Below, piece by piece: positions 1-50,533 of a DNA stretch of 64,000 nucleotides. The translations under genes and the position numbers were made by a program. The DNA comes from Prostheceraeus crozeri (taxonomy: Eukaryota > Platyhelminthes > Polycladida > Euryleptidae), in assembly GCA_907163375.1 (NCBI GenBank), contig CAJQUW010004458.1, forward strand, positions 300,147 through 364,146. The letters are read 5' to 3'. A model generated the notes under the pieces. It worked only from the letters and a program-made list of their open reading frames with translations, had not been told where the DNA came from and searched no databases. Numbering within the stretch: position 1 is the stretch's first letter; each line of letters opens with the position of its first letter.

Positions 1-458
<458 letters not shown>

Positions 459-2732: not shown

Positions 2733-3026
2733 GCCAAAATAAATTTTTCATTTTAAACTTAATTACCTCATTTACAGCCAAAAAACAATAAAGACTATAC
2801 AAATATGACAAAACTTTTTCGGCAGGCAAAATTCACGCCGTCTTCAATGTCATTAGATGTTAGAATGAAGACATTAATGTTAACATTAAGATGCTAATTC
2901 TAGCATCTAATGACATTGAAGAGGGAGTGAATTTTGCCGAAAAAGTTTTGTCTTATTTGTATAATTCTTATTGTTTCTTTACCTGTAAATGAGGTAATAA
3001 AATTTAAAATGAAAAATTTATTTTGG
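2733..3026. repeat. Foldback / MITE-like inverted repeat
   Basis: Two arms of about 140 bp, starting CCAAAATAAATTTTTCATTT and ending in its near-complement, surround a short centre near 2880. The arms share the motif GACAAAACTTTTTCGGCA and a block around TCTTCAATGTCATTAGATG. Mismatches and small indels show some age. No coding capacity is seen, so this is best read as a non-autonomous DNA element. Confidence 0.75.
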
Positions 3027-4019
3027 ATTAGTTATGGCTCATGGCACGAAATGAAACAAATTTCGCATTTCACAAATATTAATGCCAATACAAAATTATT
3101 AATTTGATTGTTTTAATAGAATGAAAAATTGGATTTCAGTCGCTGCTTTCAGTAAAAGCAGTAAAACTTCCGATAAATCAACCGAGCGTAAGCAGCAATT
3201 TGACATGGCAGAAAGATGTGTGATCGCCGCGTGCCTCGTTGTCGAAACTGTTGTCACAACGCACACATGAATAACATTAGTTATGTTTCAATTCACAAAT
3301 TAATGTATTTCAGGGATGCCTCATGTATTTAATATAATTGATTGTGGTATGTGCTCGTACTTACTGGCATCGCTTATACGAATGGAACTTCTTTAATAAC
3401 CCAGTTGAAGGAGCTACAATAGATAAGTAAGGTTTCGCATGTACTTGTAGTCTTCATATGATGTATTCTAGCATTTTACTTTATTTAAGAGCATTTTTTT
3501 ATCTAGATATTGTACAAGCGTGTAAATAATTTCGGTATATCCAATCAATTGAGCATGCTATCAATTCGAAAAGAGGGTTTTATTCAGTGAAATTTACAGC
3601 ATCATAGCCAAATTTATCAAATTTGCTATCTTTTCCTCACGATTTTGCTGCACCAACTGAATTTCTTTGATATATATTATCTATACTTTTTCGAGTAAGA
3701 AGGTCACAAATCACAGGATTTTATCATCCATTATTTATGTATGATATGATTTTAGTTTTCATGTGTTTTTCATTAAAACTAAGTTGCAAACATACAGTGC
3801 TCCGACAGCGACGCGAAATTTTTGAAAGTCGACGCCAAACGCTAAATTGGCCCTGGTGACGGGAATTTAAAGATGATGTAAAACGTTTTTTGATACTAAG
3901 TGTGTTAATGAGGAAATTATCATTATGGACTACGGAGAGCATTTTCGAATTCTATGATACGAAATTTAAAGACCCAAAAGTGCTCTTCATTCTTGAGTTT
4001 CTGTCGTTAATTTGAACTG

Positions 4020-5165
4020 CTTTTTCAGAAGAGCGACTGCCATGTCTCCGAACTTCATGACCATCTCGTACATCTCTTTGAGCGATTGTTGCTTCGTTTT
4101 ATGAAGGGAGAAAAGCTTCACTTAATGCGCTGGAAGACTGACATTTCCGACCAAAGAAGTTTGCTGGGGTGCTACAACTTCGTCATTGGTGATACTGCAA
4201 AAAGAACTTTCTGCAATATGAACTCTTCAAATCACGTTATCTTTATCGAGCAGATCCGCAAGTTCTACTCGGTCGGAACTGCGAGCCCTTCGGATTACCT
4301 ACTGGCTGGAAATGCAGTTCTTCAAAACTATCTCATATTGATCTCTATCATTGGCTCTATCTCCCTTAGCAGAAATCAGGAATGATTCCAATTTTGAGAA
4401 ATGGGTTTTGCAATTCACAAGTCATCTTCCGAAAGATATTTCCGGGGAGGAAGTATCTGACGTGTCTGTCGATGTCCACATATCATTTCCTCGCAAAAGA
4501 AGTTGCCTCCACGGACAACACTTCGGCTGGAACAATTGAAAGCTCCCTCAACACGAAGTCTTTCTGTTGGAACTCATTGGGCGATAATAGTACAAAGCAA
4601 AAAGTGTCCAACTCTGGTAAAAGCTGCGAAAGCTGCTTTTATCCTCCTTCATGGCAATGCTGAAATCGAGAAAATGTTTTCAATTCTGCCTAATGTTATA
4701 ACGAAGAATCGACAGTCTTTGTCACCTGATACTGTTAATGCCCTTGTGGTTTACAAGTCAATCATGAAGACCAAAAATTGGTCTCCTGAAACTATTCCTA
4801 TAAATAAGAAATTTGTGAAGCACTTTGTCTGACAGGGCATCATATGAGCAAGCGAAACGGGATGAGGAAAAGGAGGAAGTGAGGAAAGGACAGCAGGAAA
4901 TGGAGAGAATGCTTCAAGAAGAGATCTCGAAAGAGAATGAGACCAGCAAACGGCGAAAAGTTGTACTTGGCGAAGGCAAACGAAAAAAGAAACGAAAAAA
5001 GAAGAAATTGAGGGCAAACTCCGAAAAGAATTGGCTTTTTGATTGAGACGCAGAAGAAAGCAAAAGAGGCGGATGAGAAACTTGAAGCATTAAGAAATGA
5101 AAAAGACAAACTCACCGATAGAGAGAAGAAGTTAGACCGAAAGATGGTTCAGCAAGTCTTCAAAT
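4020..5165 (+). pseudogene. Degenerate hAT-family transposase (C-terminal part with coiled-coil tail)
   Basis: The translation in pieces over three frames gives hAT transposase segments. At about 4580-4760 the hAT dimerisation region reads LLHGNAEIEKMFSILPNV followed by KNRQSLSPDTVNALVVYKS, which is highly characteristic. Upstream fragments (4086-4540) look like the preceding RNase H-like region but are frameshifted. Downstream from 4825 the frame shifts again into a Lys/Glu-rich coiled coil (QEMERMLQEEISKENETSKR) that ends in stops. Similar tails occur at 33177-33600 and 56100-56460. At least three frameshifts make it dead. Terminal inverted repeats were not found. Confidence 0.8.
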
Positions 5166-5806: not shown

Positions 5807-5840
5807 AATTGTAAAAATAACTGTCGAAAATTGGAAATGA

Positions 5841-6109
5841 TATCAATACAAAACTGAAACACCCTGACGTATAAAGTTTTTAAAAAACAAACAATTATGC
5901 CCAACCGGTTTCACTTGTTTCCAAGCTATTGGAATTATTTTATTCAAAGCTATCAAATCAAAGGCTTTTGATTTGAATGTACTTCTACTATCTGTAAAGA
6001 AAATAGATGTCATTCCACCCATGAATAGCGTGGAAACAAGTGAAACGGTTGGGCATAATTATTTGTTTTTATTTAAAACTTTATACGTCAGGGTGTTTCA
6101 GTTTTGTAT

Positions 6110-6114
<5 letters not shown>
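5841..6114. repeat. Foldback element with 82-bp arms, next to the satellite array
   Basis: The left arm 5841-5922 (TATCAATACAAAACTGAAAC...) is almost perfectly complementary to the right arm 6032-6114, with only small indels in an A-rich part. The loop is about 110 bp. The right arm runs straight into a TA microsatellite and then the hammerhead satellite. No open reading frame fits. Confidence 0.85.

Positions 6115-6145
<31 letters not shown>
6112..6145. repeat. (TA)n microsatellite bordering the satellite array on the left
   Basis: A pure TA tract that runs directly into the first satellite unit (TTTAGACAAGTAACC at 6145). It mirrors the TA tract at 9073-9124 on the other side. Confidence 0.95.
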
Positions 6146-6148
<3 letters not shown>

Positions 6149-6195
6149 GACAAGTAACCTGGCAATTGATAAATTTATCAAATCTCAACAGATGT

Positions 6196-6249
6196 AACCA
6201 CCACGAGACATGTTTCGGCCTGTTGGGCCTCATCAGTCGTGGGTAGGTT
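6196..6249 (-). ncRNA. Hammerhead ribozyme (left arm, copy 1, outermost)
   Basis: Reverse complement of the right-arm ribozyme. On the plus strand helix I appears as CCACGA at 6201-6206 and TCGTGG at 6237-6242, with the CUGAUGA core as TCATCAG at 6230-6236. All stems are intact. Confidence 0.92.
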
Positions 6250-6498
6250 TGAACCAGCGACGTTGGAGCTAGAGGACGTGCAAGCATACCCTCTAACCAC
6301 AAGGCCACCGGACCATCTGTTGAGAGCGTGAATTAGCCAGGAAGGCACTGCTTTAACGCAGGCACGTGGAGGGCGGACTGCTTTCTGCAATCACTTAATA
6401 CCGCATCCGAGATTGAGGCGCTTCACGCAGGCGCTACTCATTACATGTTTAGACAAGTAACCTGGCAATTGATAAATTTATCAAATCTCAACAGATGT

Positions 6499-6552
6499 AA
6501 CCACCACGAGACATGTTTCGGCCTGTTGGGCCTCATCAGTCGTGGGTAGGTT
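6499..6552 (-). ncRNA. Hammerhead ribozyme (left arm, copy 2)
   Basis: Identical to left copy 1, offset by 303 bp, with all core positions retained. Confidence 0.92.
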
Positions 6553-6801
6553 TGAACCAGCGACGTTGGAGCTAGAGGACGTGCAAGCATACCCTCTAAC
6601 CACAAGGCCACCGGACCATCTGTTGAGAGCGTGAATTAGCCAGGAAGGCACTGCTTTAACGCAGGCACGTGGAGGGCGGACTGCTTTCTGCAATCACTTA
6701 ATACCGCATCCGAGATTGAGGCGCTTCACGCAGGCGCTACTCATTACATGTTTAGACAAGTAACCTGGCAATTGATAAATTTATCAAATCTCAACAGATG
6801 T

Positions 6802-6855
6802 AACCACCACGAGACATGTTTCGGCCTGTTGGGCCTCATCAGTCGTGGGTAGGTT
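6802..6855 (-). ncRNA. Hammerhead ribozyme (left arm, copy 3)
   Basis: Identical to left copy 1, offset by 606 bp. Confidence 0.92.
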
Positions 6856-7104
6856 TGAACCAGCGACGTTGGAGCTAGAGGACGTGCAAGCATACCCTCT
6901 AACCACAAGGCCACCGGACCATCTGTTGAGAGCGTGAATTAGCCAGGAAGGCACTGCTTTAACGCAGGCACGTGGAGGGCGGACTGCTTTCTGCAATCAC
7001 TTAATACCGCATCCGAGATTGAGGCGCTTCACGCAGGCGCTACTCATTACATGTTTAGACAAGTAACCTGGCAATTGATAAATTTATCAAATCTCAACAG
7101 ATGT

Positions 7105-7158
7105 AACCACCACGAGACATGTTTCGGCCTGTTGGGCCTCATCAGTCGTGGGTAGGTT
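7105..7158 (-). ncRNA. Hammerhead ribozyme (left arm, copy 4)
   Basis: Ribozyme sequence intact. The 47-bp deletion of this unit lies about 80 bp away, outside the ribozyme, so a released monomer would be about 256 nt. Confidence 0.92.
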
Positions 7159-7360
7159 TGAACCAGCGACGTTGGAGCTAGAGGACGTGCAAGCATACCC
7201 TCTAACCACAAGGCCACCGGACCATCTGTTGAGAGCGGACAGCTTTCTGCAATCACTTAATACCGCATCCGAGATTGAGGCGCTTCACGCAGGCGCTACT
7301 CATTACATGTTTAGACAAGTAACCTGGCAATTGATAAATTTATCAAATCTCAACAGATGT

Positions 7361-7414
7361 AACCACCACGAGACATGTTTCGGCCTGTTGGGCCTCATCA
7401 GTCGTGGGTAGGTT
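7361..7414 (-). ncRNA. Hammerhead ribozyme (left arm, copy 5, next to the inversion)
   Basis: Ribozyme intact in the truncated fifth unit, 133 bp from the inversion junction. In minus-strand transcription this is the first ribozyme after the centre of the palindrome. Confidence 0.92.
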
Positions 7415-7726
7415 TGAACCAGCGACGTTGGAGCTAGAGGACGTGCAAGCATACCCTCTAACCACAAGGCCACCGGACCATCTGTTGAGAGCGTGAATTA
7501 GCCAGGAAGGCACTGCTTTAACGCAGGCACGTGGAGGGCGGACTGCTGATTTGATAAATTTATCAATTGCCAGGTTACTTGTCTAAACATGTAATGAGTA
7601 GCGCCTGCGTGAAGCGCCTCAATCTCGGATGCGGTATTAAGTGATTGCAGAAAGCAGTCCGCCCTCCACGTGCCTGCGTTAAAGCAGTGCCTTCCTGGCT
7701 AATTCACGCTCTCAACAGATGGTCCG

Positions 7727-7790
7727 GTGGCCTTGTGGTTAGAGGGTATGCTTGCACGTCCTCTAGCTCCAACGTCGCTGGTTCAAACCT
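7727..7790 (+). promoter_or_regulatory. tRNA-like internal Pol III promoter (A-box and B-box) in each satellite unit
   Basis: GTGGCCTTGTGGTTAGAG at 7727-7744 resembles a tRNA A-box and D-arm. GGTTCAAACCT at 7780-7790 resembles a B-box and T-arm, about 40 bp further on, which is the normal spacing. The same pair recurs every 303 bp to the right and, inverted, in the left arm. The B-box overlaps the 5' outer strand of ribozyme helix I (AACC at 7786-7789). The whole tRNA-like plus ribozyme block is flanked by an 11-bp inverted repeat, CTCAACAGATG at 7711-7721 and CATCTGTTGAG at 7841-7851. It does not fold as a complete tRNA. A role in driving transcription is inferred. Confidence 0.65.
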
Positions 7791-7839
7791 ACCCACGACT
7801 GATGAGGCCCAACAGGCCGAAACATGTCTCGTGGTGGTT
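7786..7839 (+). ncRNA. Type I hammerhead ribozyme (right arm, copy 1)
   Basis: All invariant hammerhead elements are present in order. Helix I 5' strand CCACGA is at 7793-7798 and the core CUGAUGA at 7799-7805. Helix II GGCC/GGCC closes a CAACA loop at 7806-7818, followed by GAAA at 7819-7822. A very short helix III ACAUGU follows, and the cleavage triplet GUC ends at 7828. Helix I 3' strand UCGUGG is at 7829-7834. Helix I extends beyond an internal loop (UAC opposite U) by AACC/GGUU. Predicted self-cleavage is after C7828. Tiny helix III and open helix I are typical of metazoan type I hammerheads. The self-complementary ACAUGU suggests that two ribozymes act as a dimer. Confidence 0.93.
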
Positions 7840-8088
7840 ACATCTGTTGAGATTTGATAAATTTATCAATTGCCAGGTTACTTGTCTAAACATGTAATGA
7901 GTAGCGCCTGCGTGAAGCGCCTCAATCTCGGATGCGGTATTAAGTGATTGCAGAAAGCAGTCCGCCCTCCACGTGCCTGCGTTAAAGCAGTGCCTTCCTG
8001 GCTAATTCACGCTCTCAACAGATGGTCCGGTGGCCTTGTGGTTAGAGGGTATGCTTGCACGTCCTCTAGCTCCAACGTCGCTGGTTCA

Positions 8089-8142
8089 AACCTACCCACG
8101 ACTGATGAGGCCCAACAGGCCGAAACATGTCTCGTGGTGGTT
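8089..8142 (+). ncRNA. Hammerhead ribozyme (right arm, copy 2)
   Basis: Exact copy 303 bp downstream of copy 1. CUGAUGA is at 8102-8108 and predicted cleavage is after 8131. Confidence 0.92.
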
Positions 8143-8391
8143 ACATCTGTTGAGATTTGATAAATTTATCAATTGCCAGGTTACTTGTCTAAACATGTAA
8201 TGAGTAGCGCCTGCGTGAAGCGCCTCAATCTCGGATGCGGTATTAAGTGATTGCAGAAAGCAGTCCGCCCTCCACGTGCCTGCGTTAAAGCAGTGCCTTC
8301 CTGGCTAATTCACGCTCTCAACAGATGGTCCGGTGGCCTTGTGGTTAGAGGGTATGCTTGCACGTCCTCTAGCTCCAACGTCGCTGGTTCA

Positions 8392-8445
8392 AACCTACCC
8401 ACGACTGATGAGGCCCAACAGGCCGAAACATGTCTCGTGGTGGTT
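8392..8445 (+). ncRNA. Hammerhead ribozyme (right arm, copy 3)
   Basis: Exact copy. Core CUGAUGA is at 8405-8411 and predicted cleavage is after 8434. Confidence 0.92.
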
Positions 8446-8694
8446 ACATCTGTTGAGATTTGATAAATTTATCAATTGCCAGGTTACTTGTCTAAACATG
8501 TAATGAGTAGCGCCTGCGTGAAGCGCCTCAATCTCGGATGCGGTATTAAGTGATTGCAGAAAGCAGTCCGCCCTCCACGTGCCTGCGTTAAAGCAGTGCC
8601 TTCCTGGCTAATTCACGCTCTCAACAGATGGTCCGGTGGCCTTGTGGTTAGAGGGTATGCTTGCACGTCCTCTAGCTCCAACGTCGCTGGTTCA

Positions 8695-8748
8695 AACCTA
8701 CCCACGACTGATGAGGCCCAACAGGCCGAAACATGTCTCGTGGTGGTT
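8695..8748 (+). ncRNA. Hammerhead ribozyme (right arm, copy 4)
   Basis: Exact copy. Core CUGAUGA is at 8708-8714 and predicted cleavage is after 8737. Confidence 0.92.
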
Positions 8749-8997
8749 ACATCTGTTGAGATTTGATAAATTTATCAATTGCCAGGTTACTTGTCTAAAC
8801 ATGTAATGAGTAGCGCCTGCGTGAAGCGCCTCAATCTCGGATGCGGTATTAAGTGATTGCAGAAAGCAGTCCGCCCTCCACGTGCCTGCGTTAAAGCAGT
8901 GCCTTCCTGGCTAATTCACGCTCTCAACAGATGGTCCGGTGGCCTTGTGGTTAGAGGGTATGCTTGCACGTCCTCTAGCTCCAACGTCGCTGGTTCA

Positions 8998-9051
8998 AAC
9001 CTACCCACGACTGATGAGGCCCAACAGGCCGAAACATGTCTCGTGGTGGTT
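8998..9051 (+). ncRNA. Hammerhead ribozyme (right arm, copy 5, outermost)
   Basis: Exact copy. Core CUGAUGA is at 9011-9017 and predicted cleavage is after 9040, only about 30 bp before the TA tract that ends the array. Confidence 0.92.
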
Positions 9052-9068
9052 ACATCTGTTGAGATTTG

Positions 9069-9072
<4 letters not shown>

Positions 9073-9124
<52 letters not shown>
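9073..9124. repeat. (TA)n microsatellite bordering the satellite array on the right
   Basis: About 25 TA units directly following the truncated end of the last satellite unit. It is the counterpart of the tract at 6112-6145, and such tracts are frequent insertion sites for tandem retrozymes and SINEs. Confidence 0.95.
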
Positions 9125-13571: not shown

Positions 13572-13862
13572 GTTCGCTTCCCCTCGCACTTCAGCTCCGA
13601 CTTGAAGGACCTCCTGCGAAATCTCCTGCAAGTTGACCTTACCAAACGTTATGGTAATCTGAAGAACGGTGTCAACGATATCAAAAACCACAAATGGTTT
13701 GCTTCCACCAACTGGATCGCAATATATCATCGGGAAGTTGAAGCTCCATTCACCCCGAGAGTACGCGGTCCTGGCGACGCCACCAATTTCGACGACTATG
13801 AAGAGGAGGCCCTTAGAATTGCGCCATCGGAGAAGTGTGCCAAGGAGTTTGCTGATTTTTGA
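13572..13862 (+). CDS. PRKACA: cAMP-dependent protein kinase catalytic subunit, last coding exon
   Basis: The exon begins [19 protein letters not shown] after the acceptor TTTTTCAG and ends with TGA at 13860-13862. It encodes the end of the kinase C-lobe ([19 protein letters not shown]) and the AGC-kinase C-tail with FDDYEEE and the terminal hydrophobic motif F-A-D-F. PKA is unusual in ending exactly at FxxF, and this protein does. Compared with mammalian Calpha, the residue at the Ser338 autophosphorylation position is Ala (RIAPSEKC instead of RVSINEKC) and the CGKEF motif is CAKEF. Mammalian genes split this region into two exons; here it is one. No upstream in-frame stop separates it from the exon at 291, with which it is phase-compatible. 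Confidence 0.97.
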
Positions 13863-33600: not shown

Positions 33601-34111
33601 TTACGTAACATCTCTATATTACGTATCGGTTTCTGAAAACAAGTTATGAAAGGGGGCATCCATATAATGTGCACGTATAAAAATCCTCATTTTTGAATAC
33701 CCTCCCTCTCCTTGCGCGCAGCAGCAAGCATTTATCGACATCCCGTCAATGCGTGCGTACACTCTTTTGACCCCCCCCCCCAGGGGCCTCCCCCAACATT
33801 GCGAAGTACGAGACCAATCCCGGTATACCTCTGATATTTATAAGCTTAAATAATTATTAAACATAAGAAATCGGAATCCACAGCAGTCTGCATCTCTTGA
33901 TTGTAGGTTCTAGTCATAGAAATTTACAAATTCTTCTACAGGATGAGATGTGTTGCAATAAATATTCAGACAAAAAACCGCTCTACGCCGCTGCATAGGG
34001 AGAATTGTACGTATATGGGTGCCAATCAACTGTCACGCTGCTCAGTGCACGCCTGTCGTTCCGGGTCACCGTCTTCTCTTTCGTGCACGCGCGCTCATCA
34101 GACGCAGACTA

Positions 34112-36014
34112 CACCTTTTTAATCTCAAGTTCAGAAGTTTTAAAATGAAATTCAGAAATTTTAAAGTCAAATTCAGAAATGTTAAAATAATTTCAGAAGT
34201 ATTAAAATGAAATTCATAAATTTTTAAGTCAAATTCAGGAACTTTAAAGTCATATTCAGAACATTTAAAATGAAATTCAGAAGATTTAAAATCTATTTCA
34301 GAAGAATTTTTAACATTTAAAAACTATCAAAAAACACTATATTCTCAGTAACTAAACACATGGGATCGCTTCAGCCGCTTTGGTTAACGCCCACATTTCA
34401 ATAAAAAAGTTCTGTCATTTTACTAATGCCCAACTTCCATGTCTTCCATGGCATGCGCAACAGCAAAGAAAGTATGACTGTGTTGACAGCAGCAGGCACG
34501 GTCCTGACCAGTTAAGCTGTGCATTGCGCTTTCTATTCTAGTTTCTACGTATTGCAGTCGCTGTTCTCCAAGATTGTCGCGACTTGCATTGGGCACCAAC
34601 ATATTCCGCTTTACAAGTGACTTCAATTTCGACCAAATTTGCTCAATGGGATTGAGCATCGGTGAGTATGGTCCCAATCTCAAAATAATGAGTCCAGGAT
34701 TCGTCTCAATGCATTGCTCCAAGCGCGAGTGACAGGGAGCGTTGTCACAGACGACCACAGCATGCTCAGGAAGAATGTTATCTGGCAACTGTTCGAGCAT
34801 CACATTGACCCATTCAACAGCGTTCTCCTACTCGAAAGCACCACGTCTCATGTGTACGATCGAGTAGGATGTAATGGCACCGATGACATGAATGTTTCTG
34901 CCCTTCGATGTTGGTGCAAGAACAATTGCTCTATCATCTTGTCGGGCACGACCTTGATTTCTGCGAAAGAAGAGGTTAAAATTCAATTCATCGATCCAAA
35001 TAGAGGTTTTGCCCTGTCTCATCAGTTCAGTTGCGGCTAATACGTAATCGCGTCGCTTGCGCTTCACGTCTTGGGTATTCATCGGCACAGTTACCTGCAA
35101 GTCGAAACGCCGTAAAACTTCATCTTTCAACTTCTTCAAGGTAATTTGGGGGCGATTTTCAATTGCTTCACACAAGTAGTCGATTTGATTGATTATTTGT
35201 CTTTCAGCTTCGTTTCCTTTATTGTACTTTCCTCTATGAGACATGACGAAATGACGATGCGAGTTGTTCGAAGTGATACAAACTGATAACTATGAAAGAG
35301 AAAGAAGCTTGTATGCTGACTTATGAACCTCTAAATAAAACAGTTTCTGGACAAGCAACTCCACGCCACTAGAGGTCGCATAGATGTCTACATTAACATG
35401 CGAGGAATAAACTCCAAAGTAGCAGTTCAACTGCTGAGTATGCATTTAATGTGATGTCAATCTCCTGGTTCGTCAGAGTTCAGGCTTGAATTTGCATCAC
35501 GCTCAATGGAAGATTGATCTCCTTTCCCATCGAAACTACACCTAAGGACAATCTTGGAGAACAGCGACTGCAATACGTAGAAACTAGAATAGAAAACGCA
35601 ATGCACAGCTTAAATGGTCAGGACCATGCCCGCTGCTGTCAACACAGTCATACTTTCTTTGCTGTTGCGCATGCCATGGAAGACATGGAAGTTGGGCATT
35701 AGTAAAATGACAGAACTTTTTTTATTGAAATGTGGGCGTTAACCAAAGCGGCTGAAGCGATCCCATGTGTTTAGTTACTGAGAATATAGTGTTTTTTGAT
35801 AGTTTTTAAATGTTAAAAATTCTTCTGAAATAGATTTTAAATCTTCTGAATTTCATTTTAAATGTTCTGAATATGACTTTAAAGTTCCTGAATTTGACTT
35901 AAAAATTTATGAATTTCATTTTAATACTTCTGAAATTATTTTAACATTTCTGAATTTGACTTTAAAATTTCTGAATTTCATTTTAAAACTTCTGAACTTG
36001 AGATTAAAAAGGTG
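34112..36014 (-). mobile_element. Tc1/mariner-superfamily element with 467-bp terminal inverted repeats
   Basis: The element is bounded by TA on both sides (34110-34111 and 36015-36016) with ends CACCTTTTTAATCTCAAG and its complement. The left repeat 34112-34578 and right repeat 35547-36014 match over their full length with few differences. Each contains about ten irregular copies of TTCAGAA(A/T)TTTAAA. The repeats are so long that the 3' end of the transposase gene lies inside the left one, and an inverted copy of that coding end (about 35547-35702) lies in the right one. The internal gene runs on the minus strand. Confidence 0.85.
34423..35244 (-). pseudogene. DDE (Tc1/mariner, IS630-type) transposase with one internal stop
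   Basis: A single frame of 273 codons is interrupted only by TAG at 34828-34830. Upstream it reads SIWIDELNFNLFFRRNQGRA (first catalytic Asp of the DDE_3 fold) and GRNIHVIGAITSYSIVHMRR. Downstream it reads VVVCDNAPCHSR (second Asp) and LRLGPYSPMLNPIEQIWSKL, with the Glu/Asp region of the third catalytic position. It ends with TAG at 34423. The N-terminal helix-turn-helix is missing or compressed: the open frame starts MSHRGKYNKGNEAERQIINQ and has only about 80 residues before the catalytic domain. The single nonsense codon implies recent loss of activity. Confidence 0.85.
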
Positions 36015-40509: not shown

Positions 40510-40545
40510 TATAAAAAAGGTTCATAATAAATATCAATTCATTAC
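40510..40545 (+). promoter_or_regulatory. Candidate core promoter (TATA box and initiator) of the giant repeat gene
   Basis: TATAAAAAA at 40510-40518 lies 31 bp upstream of the A in TTCATTACAC (A at 40541), an initiator-like site at the canonical spacing. Transcription from there would give a leader of about 32 nt before the ATG at 40573. The match is by sequence only. Confidence 0.45.
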
Positions 40546-40572
40546 ACTCAGAGCCCGATCAACAACACAAAA

Positions 40573-43500
40573 ATGGCCTTTGCTACGAACCCATATTCAA
40601 AACAAACACCTCGACACGACGTATATGCGGGAAGATATAAATCCCCTATGGAAAACATTTCAATGTACAGAAAAGAATATCAAAATAAGGAAGTTGATAG
40701 ACCAAGAATGGCTTTCCAAAATGACAACCTCACGTGTGGTGAAGGACCCATGGATAGTGACAGCATGTACCGATCGCAGTTCAGAGGCAAGGAGGTGGAT
40801 AGACCAGGTTTAGCATGGCAACAAGACAACCTCAAATGCGGTGAAGGGCCAATGGACGGAGATAGCATGTACAGATCACAATTCAGAGGCAACGAGGTAG
40901 AGAGACCTGGCCTAGCACATCAGTCAGACAATCTTAAATGTGGGGAAGGAGCAATGGACAGTGATAGTATGTATAGATCGCAGTTTAGAGGAAAGGAAGT
41001 GGAAAGACCAGGACTATCTCACCAATCGGACAACTTGAAATGTGGTGAAGGAGCGATGGACAGTGACAGCATGTATAGATCACAGTTCAGGGGAAAAGAG
41101 GTCGAGAGGCCAGGTCTCGCTCACCAATCCGACAATCTCAAATGTGGTGAAGGAGCAATGGACAGTGATAGCATGTATAGATCACAGTTCAGGGGAAAGG
41201 AGGTCGAGAGGCCAGGTCTAGCTCACCAATCAGACAACCTCAAATGTGGCGAGGGAGCAATGGACAGTGACAGCATGTATAGATCACAGTTTCGAGGAAA
41301 GGAGGTCGAGAGGCCTGGTCTAGCTCACCAATCAGACAACTTAAAATGCGGTGAAGGAGCAATGGACAGTGATAGCATGTATAGATCACAGTTCAGGGGA
41401 AAGGAGGTCGAGAGGCCAGGTCTAGCTCACCAATCAGACAATCTTAAGTGTGGAGAAGGAGCGATGGACAGCGACAGCATGTATAGATCACAGTTCAGAG
41501 GAAAGGAGGTCGAGAGGCCAGGTCTAGCTCACCAATCGGACAACCTCAGGTGTGGCGAAGGAGCAATGGACAGTGACAGCATGTATAGATCACAGTTTCG
41601 AGGAAAAGAAGTCGAAAGGCCAGGTTTAGCTCACCAATCCGACAATCTGAAATGTGGAGAGGGAGCAATGGACAGTGATAGCATGTATAGATCACAATTT
41701 AGGGGGAAGGAGGTCGAAAGACCAGGTCTAGCTCATCAATCAGACAACTTGAAATGTGGTGAAGGAGCAATGGACAGTGATAGCATGTACCGATCACAGT
41801 TCAGGGGAAAAGAGGTCGAGAGGCCAGGTCTAGCTCATCAATCAGACAACCTGAGGTGTGGCGAAGGAGCAATGGACAGTGACAGCATGTATAGATCACA
41901 GTTTAGGGGAAAGGAGGTCGAGAGGCCTGGTCTCGCTCACCAATCGGACAATCTAAAATGTGGAGAGGGAGCCATGGACAGTGATAGCATGTATAGATCA
42001 CAGTTCAGGGGAAAAGAGGTCGACAGGCCAGGTCTAGCTCACCAATCAGACAACTTGAAATGTGGTGAAGGAGCGATGGACAGTGACAGCATGTACAGGT
42101 CACAGTTTCGTGGAAAAGAGGTCGAGAGGCCTGGTCTAGCTCACCAATCCGACAATCTAAAATGTGGTGAAGGAGCAATGGACAGTGATAGCATGTATAG
42201 ATCACAGTTCAGGGGAAAGGAGGTTGAGAGGCCAGGTCTAGCTCATCAATCAGACAACCTCAAATGTGGCGAGGGAGCAATGGACAGTGACAGCATGTAT
42301 AGATCACAGTTTCGAGGAAAGGAGGTCGAAAGGCCAGGTCTAGCTCACCAATCAGACAACTTAAAATGTGGCGAAGGAGCAATGGACAGTGATAGCATGT
42401 ATAGATCACAGTTCAGGGGAAAGGAGGTCGAGAGGCCAGGTCTAGCTCATCAATCAGACAACTTAAAATGCGGTGAAGGAGCAATGGACAGTGATAGCAT
42501 GTATAGATCACAGTTCAGAGGAAAGGAGGTCGAAAGACCAGGTCTAGCTCATCAATCAGACAACTTGAAATGTGGTGAAGGAGCAATGGACAGTGATAGC
42601 ATGTACCGATCACAGTTCAGGGGAAAAGAGGTCGAGAGGCCAGGTCTAGCTCATCAATCAGACAACCTGAGGTGTGGCGAAGGAGCAATGGACAGTGACA
42701 GCATGTATAGATCACAGTTTAGGGGAAAGGAGGTCGAGAGGCCTGGTCTCGCTCACCAATCGGACAATCTCAGGTGTGGAGAGGGAGCCATGGACAGTGA
42801 TAGCATGTATAGATCACAGTTTCGTGGAAAAGAGGTCGAAAGACCAGGTCTAGCTCACCAATCCGACAATCTGAAATGTGGAGAGGGAGCCATGGACAGT
42901 GATAGCATGTATAGATCACAGTTTAGGGGAAAGGAGGTCGAAAGACCAGGTCTAGCTCATCAATCAGACAACTTGAAATGTGGTGAAGGAGCAATGGACA
43001 GTGATAGCATGTACCGATCACAGTTCAGGGGAAAAGAGGTCGAGAGGCCAGGTCTAGCTCATCAATCAGACAACCTGAGGTGTGGCGAAGGAGCAATGGA
43101 CAGTGACAGCATGTATAGATCACAGTTTAGGGGGAAGGAAGTCGAAAGACCAGGTCTAGCTCACCAATCGGACAATCTAAAATGTGGAGAGGGAGCCATG
43201 GACAGTGATAGCATGTATAGATCACAGTTCAGGGGAAAAGAGGTCGAGAGGCCAGGTCTAGCTCACCAATCCGACAACCTCAAATGTGGCGAGGGAGCAA
43301 TGGACAGTGATAGCATGTATAGATCACAGTTCAGGGGAAAAGAGGTCGAGAGGCCTGGTCTCGCTCACCAATCAGACAATCTTAAGTGTGGAGAAGGAGC
43401 GATGGACAGTGATAGCATGTATAGATCACAGTTCAGAGGAAAGGAGGTCGAGAGGCCAGGTCTAGCTCACCAATCGGACAACCTCAGGTGTGGCGAAGGA

Positions 43501-45277
43501 GCAATGGACAGTGACAGCATGTATAGATCACAGTTCAGAGGAAAGGAGGTCGAGAGGCCAGGTCTAGCTCATCAATCAGATAATCTGAGGTGTGGTGAAG
43601 GAGCCATGGACAGTGATAGCATGTATAGATCACAGTTCAGAGGAAAGGAGGTCGAAAGACCAGGTCTAGCTCATCAATCAGACAACTTGAAATGTGGCGA
43701 AGGAGCAATGGACAGTGATAGCATGTACCGATCACAGTTCAGGGGAAAAGAGGTCGAGAGGCCAGGTCTAGCTCATCAATCAGACAACCTGAGGTGTGGC
43801 GAAGGAGCAATGGACAGTGACAGCATGTATAGATCACAGTTTAGGGGAAAGGAGGTCGAGAGGCCTGGTCTCGCTCACCAATCGGACAATCTAAAATGTG
43901 GAGAGGGAGCCATGGACAGTGATAGCATGTATAGATCACAGTTCAGGGGAAAAGAGGTCGAGAGGCCTGGTCTAGCTCACCAATCAGACAATCTCAAATG
44001 TGGAGAGGGAGCCATGGACAGTGATAGCATGTACAGGTCACAATTTAGGGGGAAGGAAGTCGAGAGGCCAGGTCTAGCTCACCAATCGGACAATCTAAAA
44101 TGTGGAGAGGGAGCCATGGACAGTGATAGCATGTATAGATCACAGTTCAGGGGAAAGGAGGTTGAGAGGCCAGGTCTAGCTCATCAGTCAGATAACCTGA
44201 AATGCGGCGAAGGAGCGATGGACAATGACAGTATGTACAGGTCACAGTTTCGTGGAAAAGAAGTCGAAAGGCCAGGTCTAGCGTCTCATTCAGATAACCT
44301 CAAATGTGGTGAAGGAACTATGGATGGTGACAGCATGTACAGATCTCAATTTCGAGGAAAAGAGGTAGAGAGGCCAGGTTTAGCAACCCAATCAGACAAT
44401 CTACGTGTTGGTGAAGGACCCATGGATGGTGACAGCATGTACAGATCTGAATTCCGAGGAAAGGAGGTTGAGAGACCCGGTCTAGCAACGCAATATGATA
44501 ATCTGACTTGTGGTCATGGATCCATGAATAACAACAGCATATACAGATCGGAATTCCAAAGTAAGGAGGTTGAAAGACCTGGTTTAGCCAAATACACAGA
44601 TAATCTCTGTTGTGGTGAAGGTGAGATTGAAAATAACAGCATGTACAGGACTCAATTTCGAGGAAAGGATGTAGAAAGACCAGGCCTGGCAAGATACTCG
44701 GATAATCTCAAGTGCGGAGAAGGAGATATGGACAGTGATAGTATGTATAGATCACAGTTCAGGGGAAAGGAGGTCGAGAGGCCTGGTCTCGCTCACCAAT
44801 CGGACAATCTAAAATGTGGAGAGGGAGCCATGGACAGTGATAGCATGTATAGATCACAGTTCAGGGGAAAAGAGGTCGAGAGGCCAGGTCTAGCTCACCA
44901 ATCAGACAATCTCAAATGTGGAGAGGGAGCGATGGACAGAGATAGCATGTACCGATCACAGTTCAGAGGAAAGGAGGTTGAGAGGCCAGGTCTAGCTCAC
45001 CAATCCGACAATCTGAAATGTGGAGAGGGAGCAATGGACAGTGATAGTATGTACCGATCACAGTTCAGGGGGAAAGAGGTCGAGAGGCCAGGTCTAGCTC
45101 ATCAATCAGACAACCTGAGGTGTGGCGAAGGAGCAATGGACAGTGACAGCTTGTATAGATCACAGTTCAGAGGAAAGGAGGTTGAGAGGCCAGGTTTGGC
45201 TCACCAATCAGACAATCTCAAATGTGGAGAGGGAGCCATGGACAGTGATAGCATGTACAGGTCACAATTTAGGGGGA
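40573..45277 (+). CDS. Giant 33-residue-repeat protein, SAXO/MAP6-like (5' reading frame)
   Basis: ATG at 40573 in a good context (AAAATGG) starts a short unique segment (MAFATNPYSKQTPRHDVYAG). About 46 tandem 33-residue, 99-bp units follow, with consensus elements DNLKCGEGAMDSDSMYRSQF and RGKEVERPGLAHQS. The SxY(+)xxF ... RP ... DNL..GEG pattern resembles the modules of SAXO/MAP6-type proteins that bind microtubules in cilia; this is an inference. Units from about 40900 to 44200 are nearly identical. A divergent group (44280-44740, e.g. CGHGSMNNNSIYRSEF) is followed by homogeneous units again. Every unit but a few has one Cys. The frame breaks at 45278-45281, where 29 bp of a unit are missing, and it stops at 45316-45318. 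No introns are needed. Confidence 0.85.
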
Positions 45278-48200
45278 AAATCGGACAATCTGAAATGTGG
45301 AGAGGGATCCATGGATAGTGATAGTATGTATAGATCTCAATTTCGTGGAAAGGATGTAGACAGACCAGGCTTGGCAAAATATTCGGATAATCTCAGGTGC
45401 GGAGAAGGTGAAATGGATAGTGACAGCATGTATAGATCGCAGTTTCGAGGTAAGGAGGCTGACAGACCGGCGCTTGCCCACCAGGCAGATAACCTCAAGT
45501 GTGGTGAAGGAGCAATGAACAGTGATAGCATGTATAGATCGGAGTTTCATGGCAAGGAGGCACATAGACCAGGTTTAGCTCATTATGCAGATAATCTGAC
45601 ATGTGGCGAAGGAACTATGGACAGTGACAGTATGTATAAATCGCAGTTTCTCGGTAAGAAGGCTGACAGACCGGGGCTTGCACACCACGCAGATAACCTC
45701 AAGTGTGGTGAAGGAGCGATGGACAGTGATAGCATGTATAGGTCACAGTTCCGAGGAAGGGATGCTGAAAGGCCAGGGTCAGCTCATTATTCAGATAATC
45801 TGAAATGTGGTGAAGGAACAATGGAAAGTGACAGCATGTATAGATCGCAGTTTCGAGGTAAAGAGGCTGACAGACCAGGGCTTGCCCACCAGGCAGATAA
45901 TCTCAAGTGTGGTGAAGGAGACATGGACAGTGATAGCATGTACAGATCACAGTTCAGAGGCAAGGAGGCTGAAAGACCGGCACTTGCCCACCAAACGGAT
46001 AATTTAAAATGTGGTGAAGGAGCAATGGACAGCGACAGCATGTACAAATCAGAGTTTCGAGGAAAGGATGCTGATAGGCCAGGGTTAGCTCACTATGCAG
46101 ATAATCTGACATGTGGAGAAGGAGCAATGGAAAGTGACAGTATGTACCGATGGCAGTTTCAAGGTAAAGACGCTGACAGACCGGGGCTTACACACCAGAC
46201 AGATAACCTCAAGTGTGGTGAAGGAGCGATGGACATTGACAGTATGTATAAATCACAGTTTCGAGGAAAGGATGCTGAAAGGCCAGGGTCAGCTCACTAT
46301 GCAGATAATCTCAAATGTGGTGAAGGAACAATGGAAAGTGATAGCATGTACAAATCACAGTTCAGAGGCAAGGACGCTGACAGACCGGGGCTAGCCCACC
46401 ACGCAGATAACCTCAAGTGTGGTGAAGGAACGATGGACATTGACAGTATGTATAAATCACAGTTCCGAGGAAAGGATGCTGATAGGCCAGGGTCAGCTCA
46501 CTATGCAGATAATCTGACATGTGGAGAAGGAGCAATGGAAAGTGACAGTATGTATAGATCGCAGTTTCGAGGTAAAGAGGCTGACAGACCAGGGCTTGCC
46601 CACCACGCAGACAACCTCAAGTGTGGTGAAGGAGACATGGACAGTGATAGCATGTACAGATCACAGTTCAGAGGCAAGGAAGCTGAAAGGCCGGCACTTG
46701 CCCACCAAGCAGATAATCTCAAATGTGGTGAAGGAACAATGGACAGTGACAGTATGTATAAATCGCAGTTTCGCGGTAAGGAGGCTGACAGACCGGCGCT
46801 TGCACAACAGACAGATAACCTCAAGTGTGGTGAAGGAGCGATGGACAGTGATAGTATGTACAAATCACAGTTCAGAGGCAAGGAGGCTGAAAGACCGGCA
46901 CTTGCCCACCAAGCGGATAACTTAACATGTGGTGAAGGAGCAATGGACAGTGACAGCATGTATAAATCACAGTTTCGAGGAAAGGATGTTGAAAGGCCAG
47001 GGTTAGCTCATTATGCAGATAATCTGACATGTGGTGAAGGAGCGATGGAAAGTGACAGCATGTATAGATCGCAATTTCGTGGAAAAGAGGCTGACAGACC
47101 TGGGCTAGCTCATCAGTCCGATAATCTTCAGTGTGGAGAGGGAGCGATGGACAGTGATGGTATGTACAGATCTCAGTTCAAAGGAAGAGATGCTCATAGA
47201 TCCGGATTTGCTCACCGAGCAGATAACCTAAGGTGTGGAGAAGGAGTCATGGAAAGTGACAGCATGTACAGATCGCAGTTTCGAGGTAAGGAGGCTGATC
47301 GGCCTGGACTAGCTCACCAATCCGATAACCTCAAGTGCGGTGAAGGAACAATGGACAATAACAGTATGTACAGATCACAGTTTCAAGGTAAGGAGGCCGA
47401 AAGGCCTGGACTATCCCACCAATCAGATAATCTAAAATGTGGTGAAGGAACAATGGACAGTGATAGCATGTACCGATCACAGTTTCGCGGTAAAGAAGCT
47501 GACAGACCTGGTTTAGCTCAACAGTCTGACAACCTAAAATGTGGAGAAGGAACAATGGACAGTGATAGCATGTACAAATCGCAGTTTCGCGGTAAGGTGG
47601 CAGATAGACCTGGCTTGACTCATCAAACCGATAATCTCAAATGTGGAGAAGGAACAATGGACAGTGATAGCATGTACCGGTCACAGTTCCGCGGTAAAGA
47701 GGCTGACAGACCTGGTTTAGCTCATCAAGCCGATAATCTCAAATGTGGTGAAGGAACAATGGACAGTGACAGCATGTACCGATCACAATTTCGTGGTAAG
47801 GAAGCTGACAGACCTGGCTTGACTCATCAAACCGATAATCTCAAATGTGGAGAAGGAACAATGGACAGTGATAGCATGTACCGGTCACAGTTCCGCGGTA
47901 AAGAGGCTGACAGACCTGGTTTAGCTCATCAAGCCGATAATCTAAAATGTGGTGAAGGAACAATGGACAGTGATAGCATGTACAAATCACAGTTTCGTGG
48001 TAAGGTGGTTGATAGACCTGGTTTAGCTCATCAGTCAGATAACCTCAAATGTGGTGAAGGAGCAATGGACAGTGACAGCATGTATAGATCACAGTTCAGA
48101 GGCAAGGAGGCTGACAGACCTGGTTTAGCTCATCAGTCAGACAACCTAAAATGTGGAGAAGGAGCAATGGAAAGTGATAGCATGTACAAATCACAGTTTC

Positions 48201-50533
48201 GCGGTAAAGAAGCTGACAGGCCTGGCCTAGCTCATCAAGCCGATAATCTCAAATGTGGTGAAGGAGCAATGGACAGCGATAGCATGTATAAATCGCAGTT
48301 TCGCGGTAAAGAAGTTGACAGGCCTGGCCTAGCTCATCAAGCCGATAATCTCAAATGTGGTGAAGGAGCAATGGACAGCGATAGCATGTATAAATCGCAG
48401 TTTCGCGGTAAAGAAGTTGACAGGCCTGGCCTAGCTCATCAAACCGATAATCTCAAATGTGGTGAAGGAGCAATGGACAGTGATAGTATGTATAAGTCTG
48501 AATTTCGAGGTAGGGAGGCTAATAGACCTGGTTTAACTAATCAACATGATAATCTCAAATGCGGAGAGGGAACAATGGACAGTGACAGTATGTACAAGTC
48601 CGAGTTTCGAGGAAAGGAAGCACAGCGACAAGGATTAGCGATGCAAACAGATAATCTAAAATGTGGGGAGGGATCAATGAATAATAGCAGTATGTATAGA
48701 TCTCAATTCGTGGTTAGGGTAGCTGAAAGACCAGGAATATCAAAGCAGGAAGACAATCTTAAATGTGGAGAGGGGGCAATGAATGATGATAGCATGTACA
48801 AATCGGAATTTAAAGGAAAAGAAATTGAGAGACGAGCACTGACGCTACATTCCGATAACCTAAAATGCGGTGAAGGGAAAATGAATGAGGATAGCATGTA
48901 CCGAACTCAATTCAAAGGAAATAAGGCTGAAAGACCAGGTATAGCTGTGAAATCAGATAACCTTAAATGTGGTGAAGGTTCAATGAATAATGAAAGTATG
49001 TACAAATCGCAGTTCATAAGCAAAGGGTTTGTTGAGAGACCCAGCATAGCAATACAGGCAGATAACCTTAAATGTGGTGAAGGGTCAATGAACAATAGCA
49101 GCGTGTACAGTTCTCAGTTCGAAGGGAAGGATATTGAGAGAAGAGAACTAAAAATGCAGACAGACAACCTTAAATGTGGTGAGGGAAAAATGAACGATGA
49201 CAGTATGTATAAATCTCAATTTATAGCCAAAAAGGTTGAGAGACCTGAAAAAGTGGCGAAGAAAGAGGACAACCTTAAATGTGGTGAAGGAAAGATGGAT
49301 GACGATAGCATGTACAAATCCCATTTCATAAAGCAGAAGATTGATAGAGCTGGTCTTGTATTGCATTCAGATAACCTTAAATGTGGTGAGGGAAAGATGG
49401 GTGATGATAGTATGTACAAATCCCACTTCATAAAGCAAAAGTTTGACAGACCTGGTTTAGCTGTGTACTCAGACAATCTTAAATGCGGTGAAGGAAAAAT
49501 GGATGACGATAGCGTGTATAAATCTCACTTTATAAGTCAAAAGATTGATAGACCCGGTCTAGTACTGCATTCAGACAATCTTACATGTGGTGATGGAAAA
49601 ATGGAAGATGATAGTATGTACAAATCTCAGTACGTAAGCCAGAAGATTGAGAAACGGGGTCTCTCAATGTATTCGGATAACCTTAAATGTGGTGAGGGAA
49701 AGATAGAGGATGACAGTATATACAAATCCCATTTCATAGGCAAAACGATTGATAGACCTGGACTAGTGATGCATTCAGATAACCTTACATGCGGCGAGGG
49801 CAAAATGGAAGATGACAGCATGTACAAATCTCAGTTCATAGGCCAAAAAATTGACAAGCGTGCTCTAGCATTGCATTCGGATAATCTCAAATGTGGTGAG
49901 GGAAAGATGGACGATGATAGCATTTACAAGTCCCAGTTTACAAGTCAGAAAATTGATAGACCTGGACTAGCATTGCATTCAGATAACCTCACATGTGGTG
50001 AGGGAAAAATGGAGGATGACAGCATGTACAAATCTCAGTTCACAAGTCAAAAAATTGACAAGCGGTCTCTAGCATTGCATTCGGATAATCTCAAATGTGG
50101 TGAGGGAAAGATGGACGATGATAGCATGTACAAGTCTCAGTTTAAAAGTCAGAAAATTGATAAGCCTACTCTCGCATTGCATTCGGATAACCTCAAATGT
50201 GGTGAAGGCTCAATGGATGATAAAAGTATGTACCGCACGCAGTATCGGGATAAAATCGTTCAGAGGCCTGGGTTGGCATTAAAATACGATAACTTGAAAT
50301 GTGGTGAAGGAAAAATGGAAGATGACAGTATTTACAAATCGCAATTCAAAGGAAAGGAAGTAAACAGACCTGAAGTGATCCGCTGTGAAGATAACCTAAA
50401 ATGCGCAGAAGGTAAAATGGATGGAAGCACCGTTTACATGAGTCAATTTGGAGGAAATGAAGTCTTAAAGCCAGCATTTTGTCCCCAGGAAAATTTGTTT
50501 TGTGAGGGTCATCTGTGTACAGGAAATCATTAG
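45278..50533 (+). CDS. Giant 33-residue-repeat protein, SAXO/MAP6-like (3' reading frame)
   Basis: This is the continuation of the same repeat array in the next frame, from SDNLKCGEGSMDSDSMYRSQ to TAG at 50531-50533: about 53 units plus a short unique end (VLKPAFCPQENLFCEGHLC). Units here are more diverse than in the 5' part. The first half uses K(E/D)A(D/E)RPGLAH with alternating AHY...MESD and AHQ...MDSD units. The last 15 or so units are the most divergent (KIDRPGLVLHSDNLTCGEGK alternating with KIDKR.LALHSDNLKCGEGK), a 66-residue higher-order repeat. Both frames together would make a protein of about 3,300 residues. The lack of any other stop over 5 kb argues that the array was under selection until recently, or that the break is an assembly error. 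Confidence 0.85.
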   Translation, partial: KSDNLKCGEGSMDSDSMYRSQFRGKDVDRPGLAKYSDNLRCGEGEMDSDSMYRSQFRGKEADRPALAHQADNLKCGEGAMNSDSMYRSEFHGKEAHRPGLAHYADNLTCGEGTMDSDSMYKSQFLGKKADRPGLAHHADNLKCGEGAMDSDSMYRSQFRGRDAERPGSAHYSDNLKCGEGTMESDSMYRSQFRGKEADRPGLAHQADNLKCGEGDMDSDSMYRSQFRGKEAERPALAHQTDNLKCGEGAMDSDSMYKSEFRGKDADRPGLAHYADNLTCGEGAMESDSMYRWQFQGKDADRPGLTHQTDNLKCGEGAMDIDSMYKSQFRGKDAERPGSAHYADNLKCGEGTMESDSMYKSQFRGKDADRPGLAHHADNLKCGEGTMDIDSMYKSQFRGKDADRPGSAHYADNLTCGEGAMESDSMYRSQFRGKEADRPGLAHHADNLKCGEGDMDSDSMYRSQFRGKEAERPALAHQADNLKCGEGTMDSDSMYKSQFRGKEADRPALAQQTDNLKCGEGAMDSDSMYKSQFRGKEAERPALAHQADNLTCGEGAMDSDSMYKSQFRGKDVERPGLAHYADNLTCGEGAMESDSMYRSQFRGKEADRPGLAHQSDNLQCGEGAMDSDGMYRSQFKGRDAHRSGFAHRADNLRCGEGVMESDSMYRSQFRGKEADRPGLAHQSDNLKCGEGTMDNNSMYRSQFQGKEAERPGLSHQSDNLKCGEGTMDSDSMYRSQFRGKEADRPGLAQQSDNLKCGEGTMDSDSMYKSQFRGKVADRPGLTHQTDNLKCGEGTMDSDSMYRSQFRGKEADRPGLAHQADNLKCGEGTMDSDSMYRSQFRGKEADRPGLTHQTDNLKCGEGTMDSDSMYRSQFRGKEADRPGLAHQADNLKCGEGTMDSDSMYKSQFRGKVVDRPGLAHQSDNLKCGEGAMDSDSMYRSQFRGKEADRPGLAHQSDNLKCGEGAMESDSMYKSQFRGKEADRPGLAHQADNLKCGEGAMDSDSMYKSQFRGKEVDRPGLAHQADNLKCGEGAMDSDSMYKSQFRGKEVDRPGLAHQTDNLKCGEGAMDSDSMYKSEFRGREANRPGLTNQHDNLKCGEGTMDSDSMYKSEFRGKEAQRQGLAMQTDNLKCGEGSMNNSSMYRSQFVVRVAERPGISKQEDNLKCGEGAMNDDSMYKSEFKGKEIERRALTLHSDNLKCGEGKMNEDSMYRTQFKGNKAERPGIAVKSDNLKCGEGSMNNESMYKSQFISKGFVERPSIAIQADNLKCGEGSMNNSSVYSSQFEGKDIERRELKMQTDNLKCGEGKMNDDSMYKSQFIAKKVERPEKVAKKEDNLKCGEGKMDDDSMYKSHFIKQKIDRAGLVLHSDNLKCGEGKMGDDSMYKSHFIKQKFDRPGLAVYSDNLKCGEGKMDDDSVYKSHFISQKIDRPGLVLHSDNLTCGDGKMEDDSMYKSQYVSQKIEKRGLSMYSDNLKCGEGKIEDDSIYKSHFIGKTIDRPGLVMHSDNLTCGEGKMEDDSMYKSQFIGQKIDKRALALHSDNLKCGEGKMDDDSIYKSQFTSQKIDRPGLALHSDNLTCGEGKMEDDSMYKSQFTSQKIDKRSLALHSDNLKCGEGKMDDDSMYKSQFKSQKIDKPTLALHSDNLKCGEGSMDDKSMYRTQYRDKIVQRPGLALKYDNLKCGEGKMEDDSIYKSQFKGKEVNRPEVIRCEDNLKCAEGKMDGSTVYMSQFGGNEVLKPAFCPQENLFCEGHLCTGNH

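Follow-up and report, generated by a model that had tools for sequence, protein, structure and literature searches.

We examined a 64-kb stretch of contig CAJQUW010004458.1 from Prostheceraeus crozeri (assembly of 2.05 Gb), here called the window, which bears hammerhead-ribozyme repeats inside an intron of ~13 kb between two exons for the PKA catalytic subunit. The exons were located by tblastn with a human PKA sequence as query, their bounds on the intron side being approximate (Table 1); they lie on the plus strand and bear out the placement in a PKA intron that an earlier note on this DNA had proposed. The repeat unit measures 303 bp from cleavage site to cleavage site and has a GC content of 50.5%. 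Seven of the eight complete units are letter-identical and the eighth, at 256 bp, has lost 47 bp, in keeping with the near identity of copies claimed before. The same note had counted ten copies of a 303-bp tandem unit; both numbers stand, but the copies form two inverted arrays, five units on the minus strand and five on the plus strand, set head to head with both 3' ends pointing outward, and this inversion had been missed. Likewise, the reported span of 6145 to 9062 had the correct start, but the insert runs on to 9073, and Tandem Repeats Finder places (TA)n on either side of it.

Each of the ten copies reads as a type I hammerhead: a CUGANGA and GAAA core, helix II (GGCC-CAACA-GGCC), an open helix I (CCACGA/UCGUGG, lengthened by an AACC/GGUU segment), and a UH cleavage site, here GUC, features that the earlier note had largely picked out. 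Its description of the hammerhead as complete suits the core and helices I and II but not helix III, which in GAAA-CAUG-UC is a single A-U pair capped by a palindromic CAUG loop, without a stable hairpin of its own. The contiguous 30-nt string CTGATGA-GGCC-CAACA-GGCC-GAAA-CATGTC occurs exactly ten times in the window and never in 100 shuffles. A structural scan of the window returned exactly the ten array hammerheads and no other, the motif at 34079-34101 giving no match. The covariance search that had been proposed as a check gave a divided answer: all ten copies match the Rfam model RF02275 (HH9) with E 8.4e-6 and 33.5 bits, but none passes in gathering mode, where the score is 52. An exact 25-mer of the hammerhead had no match in a viral contig collection. 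The predicted 303-nt circle folds at -103.2 kcal/mol, whereas 200 shuffled sequences average -83.4 (sd 5.4; z -3.7). The same form of helix III is reported in axolotl and newts by PMC7229834, where it cleaves poorly as a monomer and much better in dimeric constructs; because helix III is one base pair here, and given those dimer data, the hammerhead of the window probably cuts as a dimer. Since the plus arm is sense to PKA, a read-through PKA transcript could form a hairpin of more than 1 kb from the inverted arms, masking the ribozymes.

Table 1. Features of the retrozyme locus and its host intron (window coordinates)
Feature	Position	Strand	Basis
PKA catalytic-subunit exon upstream of intron (end approximate)	288..416	+	tblastn
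Left flank (target), (AT)17 microsatellite	6112..6145	.	Tandem Repeats Finder
Minus arm (five units) from inner end 7547 to outer 3' end 6145 (site B, phase 62); 47-bp deletion at ~7234/7235	6145..7547	-	
Hammerhead minus copy 1; predicted cleavage between 6207 and 6206	6196..6249	-	Rfam HH9 + exact string; extent from helix I
Hammerhead minus copy 2	6499..6552	-	Rfam HH9 + exact string
Hammerhead minus copy 3	6802..6855	-	Rfam HH9 + exact string
Hammerhead minus copy 4	7105..7158	-	Rfam HH9 + exact string
Hammerhead minus copy 5	7361..7414	-	Rfam HH9 + exact string
Plus arm (five units) from inner end 7548 to outer 3' end 9073 (site A, phase 33); in PKA sense	7548..9073	+	
Hammerhead plus copy 1; predicted cleavage after C7828	7786..7839	+	Rfam HH9 + exact string
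Two predicted start-site hairpins 3' of ribozyme, one example unit; site A after 7861, site B after 7890	7844..7898	+	unit fold + end positions
Hammerhead plus copy 2; predicted cleavage after 8131	8089..8142	+	Rfam HH9 + exact string
Hammerhead plus copy 3; predicted cleavage after 8434	8392..8445	+	Rfam HH9 + exact string
Hammerhead plus copy 4; predicted cleavage after 8737	8695..8748	+	Rfam HH9 + exact string
Hammerhead plus copy 5; predicted cleavage after 9040	8998..9051	+	Rfam HH9 + exact string
Right flank (target), (AT)27 microsatellite; first bases overlap the plus arm's end	9069..9123	.	Tandem Repeats Finder
PKA catalytic-subunit last coding exon (start approximate)	13572..13859	+	tblastn; Pkinase E 0.0031, below Pfam cut-off

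A genome search, also proposed earlier, found further copies: the element lies on at least 39 contigs including that of the window, these being the best-scoring 39 of 443 candidates and so probably the youngest copies. We analysed 33 loci, namely the window and 32 fetched loci (20 from the first-listed contigs, then 8 and 4 chosen for compactness or for matches on both strands), with six of the 39 contigs falling outside the sample. Two of the loci, L016 and L019, each hold neighbouring insertions, hence the insertions counted below are not all independent loci. Of the 20 loci from the first-listed contigs, 18 have inverted arms with outward 3' ends. The flanks of 29 loci (53 pieces, from all loci but L061-L064) are mutually unrelated, barring five short stretches (30-123 bp) that match, 133 bp common to L016 and L031, and L034 (G000:C3300:3500-6800), whose two flanks form one perfect palindrome of at least 800 bp, either an assembly fault or a large inverted duplication. 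The family is thus not the satellite of the earlier note but a dispersed insertion family, and the insert of the window looks like the product of one integration event with two inverted arms. One subfamily is marked by C39A and A181G in its units (L020, L023, L028, L032, L034 and L036).

With phase counted from the cleavage site, the outer 3' ends cluster at phase 33 (site A, ..GATTTGATAAA) and, 29 nt away, at phase 62 (site B, ..CTTGTCTAAA); an end was scored as A or B if within ~3 nt. Both ends are readable as A or B in 25 insertions, and 24 of these have one of each, with one A/A (L034) and no B/B (P 8e-7 under independence, where mixed ends make up at most half). A 29-nt tail is thereby found on one of the two inverted copies in the same 24/25. 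Outside the 25 stand L026 (a single arm), L015 and L063 (complex), L012, L014 and L023 (one end beyond the stretch), and five insertions with one end elsewhere. In the predicted fold of the unit, successive hairpins carry the two sites, A within the apical loop of the first and B on the loop edge of the second, and the other units carry the same two predicted hairpins as the example in Table 1; these folds are single minimum-energy predictions.

TA runs of 10 or more adjoin 23 of the 27 insertions, on both sides in 19 of 25, whereas among 12162 control windows drawn from the 64-kb sequence 25 touch such a run. Target duplications are unreadable within (TA)n; outside it they measure 14 bp at L035 and 10-11 bp at L036.

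The inner joints, where the two arms meet, are by comparison scattered over the phases of the unit (54 values from 27 insertions; Kolmogorov-Smirnov P 0.12). Arm lengths range from 138 to 3483 bp (0.5 to 11.5 units). In 13 of the 27 joints the alignment marks a short filler. The fillers of L027 and L033 repeat or invert nearby unit sequence, a pattern to be expected of polymerase-theta end joining.

Substitutions were counted at positions covered at least three times (n=227). Most (187) occur in a single unit, 15 are at intermediate frequency (two nearly fixed, L016b at 17/18 and L023 at 9/10; three in the palindromic L034; four in L030), and 25 are present in every unit of both arms. Ten of those 25 are private to one of the 27 insertions, spread over seven insertions, e.g. 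G89T in L017 (5/5 and 7/7 units in the two arms), C288T in L024 (5/5 and 5/5), and both C251T and C288A in L027 (3/3 and 5/5). Because such private changes are fixed in every unit of both arms, they point to repeated copying of one monomer in either direction, which a circle would permit. An alternative for these changes remains later gene conversion, or a source array that was already uniform.

Penelope-like elements (PLEs) resident in the same genome show a comparable layout. GIY-YIG frames are abundant (150 scored of 11858 first-look candidates), many of the matches lying in open frames of 720-741 aa and some in tandem; head-to-head GIY-YIG pairs were seen on four contigs among the frames scored. 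Of three resident PLE frames tested, all match GIY-YIG and two match RVT_1. Two PLE pairs were checked on the sequence. In L057 the target duplication is 14 bp and one arm exceeds the other by 36 nt; in L060 the duplication is 8-12 bp and the excess 24-28 nt. Genome searches with the ends of these two (40 scored of 487 and of 354 candidates, respectively) found exactly one arm tailed in 13/13 readable pairs for L057 and 14/14 for L060, the pairs other than L057 and L060 themselves being read from match coordinates. In the L057 search the A arm of C13584 starts at query position 23 and the other A arms at 27-39; we dropped C11045 (second match internal) and C7064 (two places on the same strand), and contigs with single matches were not taken as pairs. 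In the L060 search A arms end at 301-310, and C6846 (one end internal) and C12665 (two places ~198 kb apart) were dropped. Minimum-energy folds place site A in a predicted loop in L057 and L060, though not in L054. That last locus had been considered as a PLE within (TA)n, but the candidate was withdrawn since its left TA-rich flank recurs in L038, L052, L055 and L056 and is hence PLE sequence. We also note a GIY-YIG match at G000:C6269:69544-69795 in an open frame of 3625 aa, compared with ~730 aa for the usual PLE frame.

Published work on PLEs describes much the same scars. Anolis Poseidon PAc (PMC11167929) and Adineta Penelope (PMC3846280) are reported as head-to-head copies with a ~30-nt tail on one, short target duplications, AT-rich targets, and a hammerhead upstream of two adjacent reverse transcriptase start sites. 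For Penelope, PMC3846280 gives head-to-head pseudo-long-terminal-repeats (pLTRs), with a 31-bp tail optional on one, and 8-10-bp duplications. According to PMC11167929, a purified PLE protein with a preference for AT-rich DNA cleaves both strands and extends them, and synthesis begins at either of two neighbouring internal sites, between which the tail lies. PLEs have been named as candidate helpers of retrozymes (PMC7761336, PMC11722881, PMC7229834), and papers of 2020 and 2024 put forward PLEs or long interspersed nuclear elements (LINEs) as candidates for this role on the grounds of shared hammerheads, tandem copies and co-occurrence.

We conclude that the element is probably a non-autonomous animal retrozyme integrated by PLE-type machinery, with target priming from both DNA strands. 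The earlier note had already called it a retrozyme, and the type I hammerhead, the repeat of 303 bp, the dispersal of young copies and a variant pattern that points to a single monomer all speak for this; that note gave no mechanism of integration, and one can be proposed here because the array ends supply it. PLEs encode a reverse transcriptase and a GIY-YIG endonuclease, whereas a 303-bp unit is too small to hold them, so the element appears PLE-like in its integration and is not itself a PLE. In the scheme that we infer, (i) a genomic array would be transcribed; (ii) its hammerheads, probably as dimers, would cut the RNA into 303-nt monomers, which a host ligase may close into circles such as PMC7229834 reports in other animals; (iii) a PLE reverse transcriptase-endonuclease would recognise the hairpins just 3' of the ribozyme and cut both strands of an AT-rich target, usually the (TA)n seen in the flanks; (iv) priming would use site A on one cut strand and site B on the other, these being the observed end positions, 29 nt apart; (v) each cDNA would make up to several turns of one and the same circle, so that the arms have private variants in common, as observed; and (vi) the cDNA ends would be joined at the variable places seen in the inner joints, directly or with short fillers, leaving target duplications of 10-14 bp where the flank is unique, as at two loci.

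We also lean, with appreciably less confidence, towards a one-site-per-strand rule of the PLE machinery, in which sites A and B would each feed one cut strand and retrozymes would be parasites of PLEs. If true, the rule explains both the Penelope tail and the head-to-head layout, and retrozymes keep only the ribozyme and two start hairpins, supplying an RNA circle that is copied round in both directions. The A/B rule is a testable mechanism for two old Penelope puzzles, why copies are inverted and why one has a tail. With only 303 nt, the RNA would be a small substrate for reconstituting PLE integration. More broadly, integration scars offer countable evidence, within one genome, on what mobilises animal retrozymes, and the fixation of private variants in the two arms alike is evidence, at the genomic level, that the template was single and small, as an RNA circle would be.

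Several observations weigh against this interpretation. The account of PAc in PMC11167929 reports that start sites did not differ between the strands and does not predict one site per strand, so the rule goes beyond that work; the ends here are nearly always one of each. The A/A insertion L034 lies between perfectly palindromic flanks, and five insertions have one end off A and B (L019a and L019b at phase 300, L031 at 168, L061 at 235, L062 at 122). The last sixth of the unit holds only 2 of the 54 inner joint values. In L030 four variants occur in both arms but in 2/3 of the units, as if the template held two unlike monomers, a pattern that one circle leaves without explanation. On the PLE side, two of the four fetched pairs (L058, L059) are without clear ends, and the combined count of retrozyme and PLE pairs (51/52, P 1e-14 with all pairs treated as independent) includes PLE pairs in which B is a match reaching the end of the query, and an arm running past B would look alike. 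Targeting of (TA)n is shown for no PLE family. The unit gave only chance words of 11-20 nt (E >2) against the fetched PLE loci, so that no helper PLE is named. Rfam models (E up to 1), applied to 16 of the 20 loci L037-L056, found no hammerhead, nor did the structural scan in L037-L060, most of these PLE loci being 3' pieces.

Separately, the L019 stretch 2789-3915 holds two neighbouring insertions whose plus arm stops within the hammerhead's CAUG loop, at phase 300, with (TA)n next to it. These ends are possibly a third start site, possibly a local duplication.

Among other explanations, the one that survives best, though we regard it as unlikely, keeps the PLE-type machinery but has it copy a linear multimer in place of the circle, or lets an antisense template prime itself (snap-back). 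Self-priming was suggested for Penelope by PMC3846280 on the basis of palindromes at the head-to-head junctions of rotifer PLEs, and three of our 27 inner joints (L020, L027, L034) have nearly equal phases on both arms. In the other 24, however, the phases lie more than 12 nt apart, and the private changes fixed in both arms call for a single monomer as source, or for a source array already uniform in them.

Twin priming by LINEs yields inverted arms with outward 3' ends, and in LINE inversions one end falls at a variable internal place. The inverted layout is thus also what would be expected had a LINE mobilised the element, and a reverse transcriptase piece, below the Pfam cut-off, is present in the window at 63171-63977; reviews still list LINEs as possible helpers (PMC11722881). 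We nonetheless rate this a little lower again, since the outer ends here fall at two fixed sites rather than a variable internal one, and since resident PLEs likewise have one tailed arm and one without a tail, a comparison that comprises two PLE families and no LINEs.

Growth of a satellite array by unequal exchange, with later inversion and with gene conversion keeping the units alike, would account for the likeness of units within a locus, and conversion could fix private variants. It is difficult to reconcile with dispersed loci having unrelated flanks, with fixed paired end sites and target duplications, and with the 187 single-unit variants that conversion has left unerased, and we hold it very improbable. 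We give as little credence to an assembly artefact as the origin of the inverted layout: L034, with its flank identical on both sides, would suit it, but the flanks are unlike each other in the other loci examined, and the arms are of unequal length and end at different sites. A cut-and-paste DNA element with long inverted ends, which the inverted ends and TA-rich targets recall, is the least credible of all, since the two ends are offset by 29 bp and the arm lengths and inner joints vary from insertion to insertion, showing that copies were formed anew each time.

Among the closest known systems are the non-LTR (long terminal repeat) retrozymes of coral, mussel and axolotl, described in PMC7229834 as many dispersed copies with a type I hammerhead in repeats of ~170-400 nt; our 303-bp tandem units, each with its type I hammerhead, lie within the ~150-450 bp typical of animal non-LTR retrozymes. 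The axolotl HHR_Amex1 and those of newts share the weak helix III and a palindromic tetraloop. The P. crozeri element differs in having two arms set head to head whose outer ends are fixed and offset (the main text of PMC7229834 nowhere uses the word 'inverted') and, marginally and as a descriptive trait, in a GC content just above the <50% given there. Among titles and abstracts found in a literature search with subscription journals outside its scope, none concerns head-to-head retrozymes or their ends.

Schistosoma SMalpha and W36.2 (PMC8490949, PMC4918200) resemble the element in unit size (335 bp for W36.2) and in having a type I hammerhead, within a short interspersed nuclear element (SINE)-like repeat. 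Those repeats are reported to contain tRNA sequence, whereas neither ARAGORN nor the Rfam tRNA model found a tRNA in our unit, and A and B boxes occur only with two and one mismatches, as they do in 43 of 3000 random sequences. The case for a tRNA or pol III origin is weak on these grounds and we do not claim one. The hammerhead repeats of Nematostella, taken as LINE-like in PMC4918200, have 15-bp target duplications, similar in length to those of 10-14 bp found here.

Other features of the window include a palindromic element at 5840-6115, with 93-bp inverted ends that are 93.5% identical (5840-5930 and 6024-6115), lying between two TA runs; its right end adjoins the (TA)n that bears the retrozyme. 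Besides the reverse transcriptase piece mentioned above, which is below the Pfam cut-off, the window holds pieces of a hAT transposase (4461-4829) and a DDE_3 transposase (34426-35289). A long gene-like stretch at 40531-50530 consists of repeats of ~34 aa (102-bp period, tens of copies), and its first 1000 residues are without a Pfam match.

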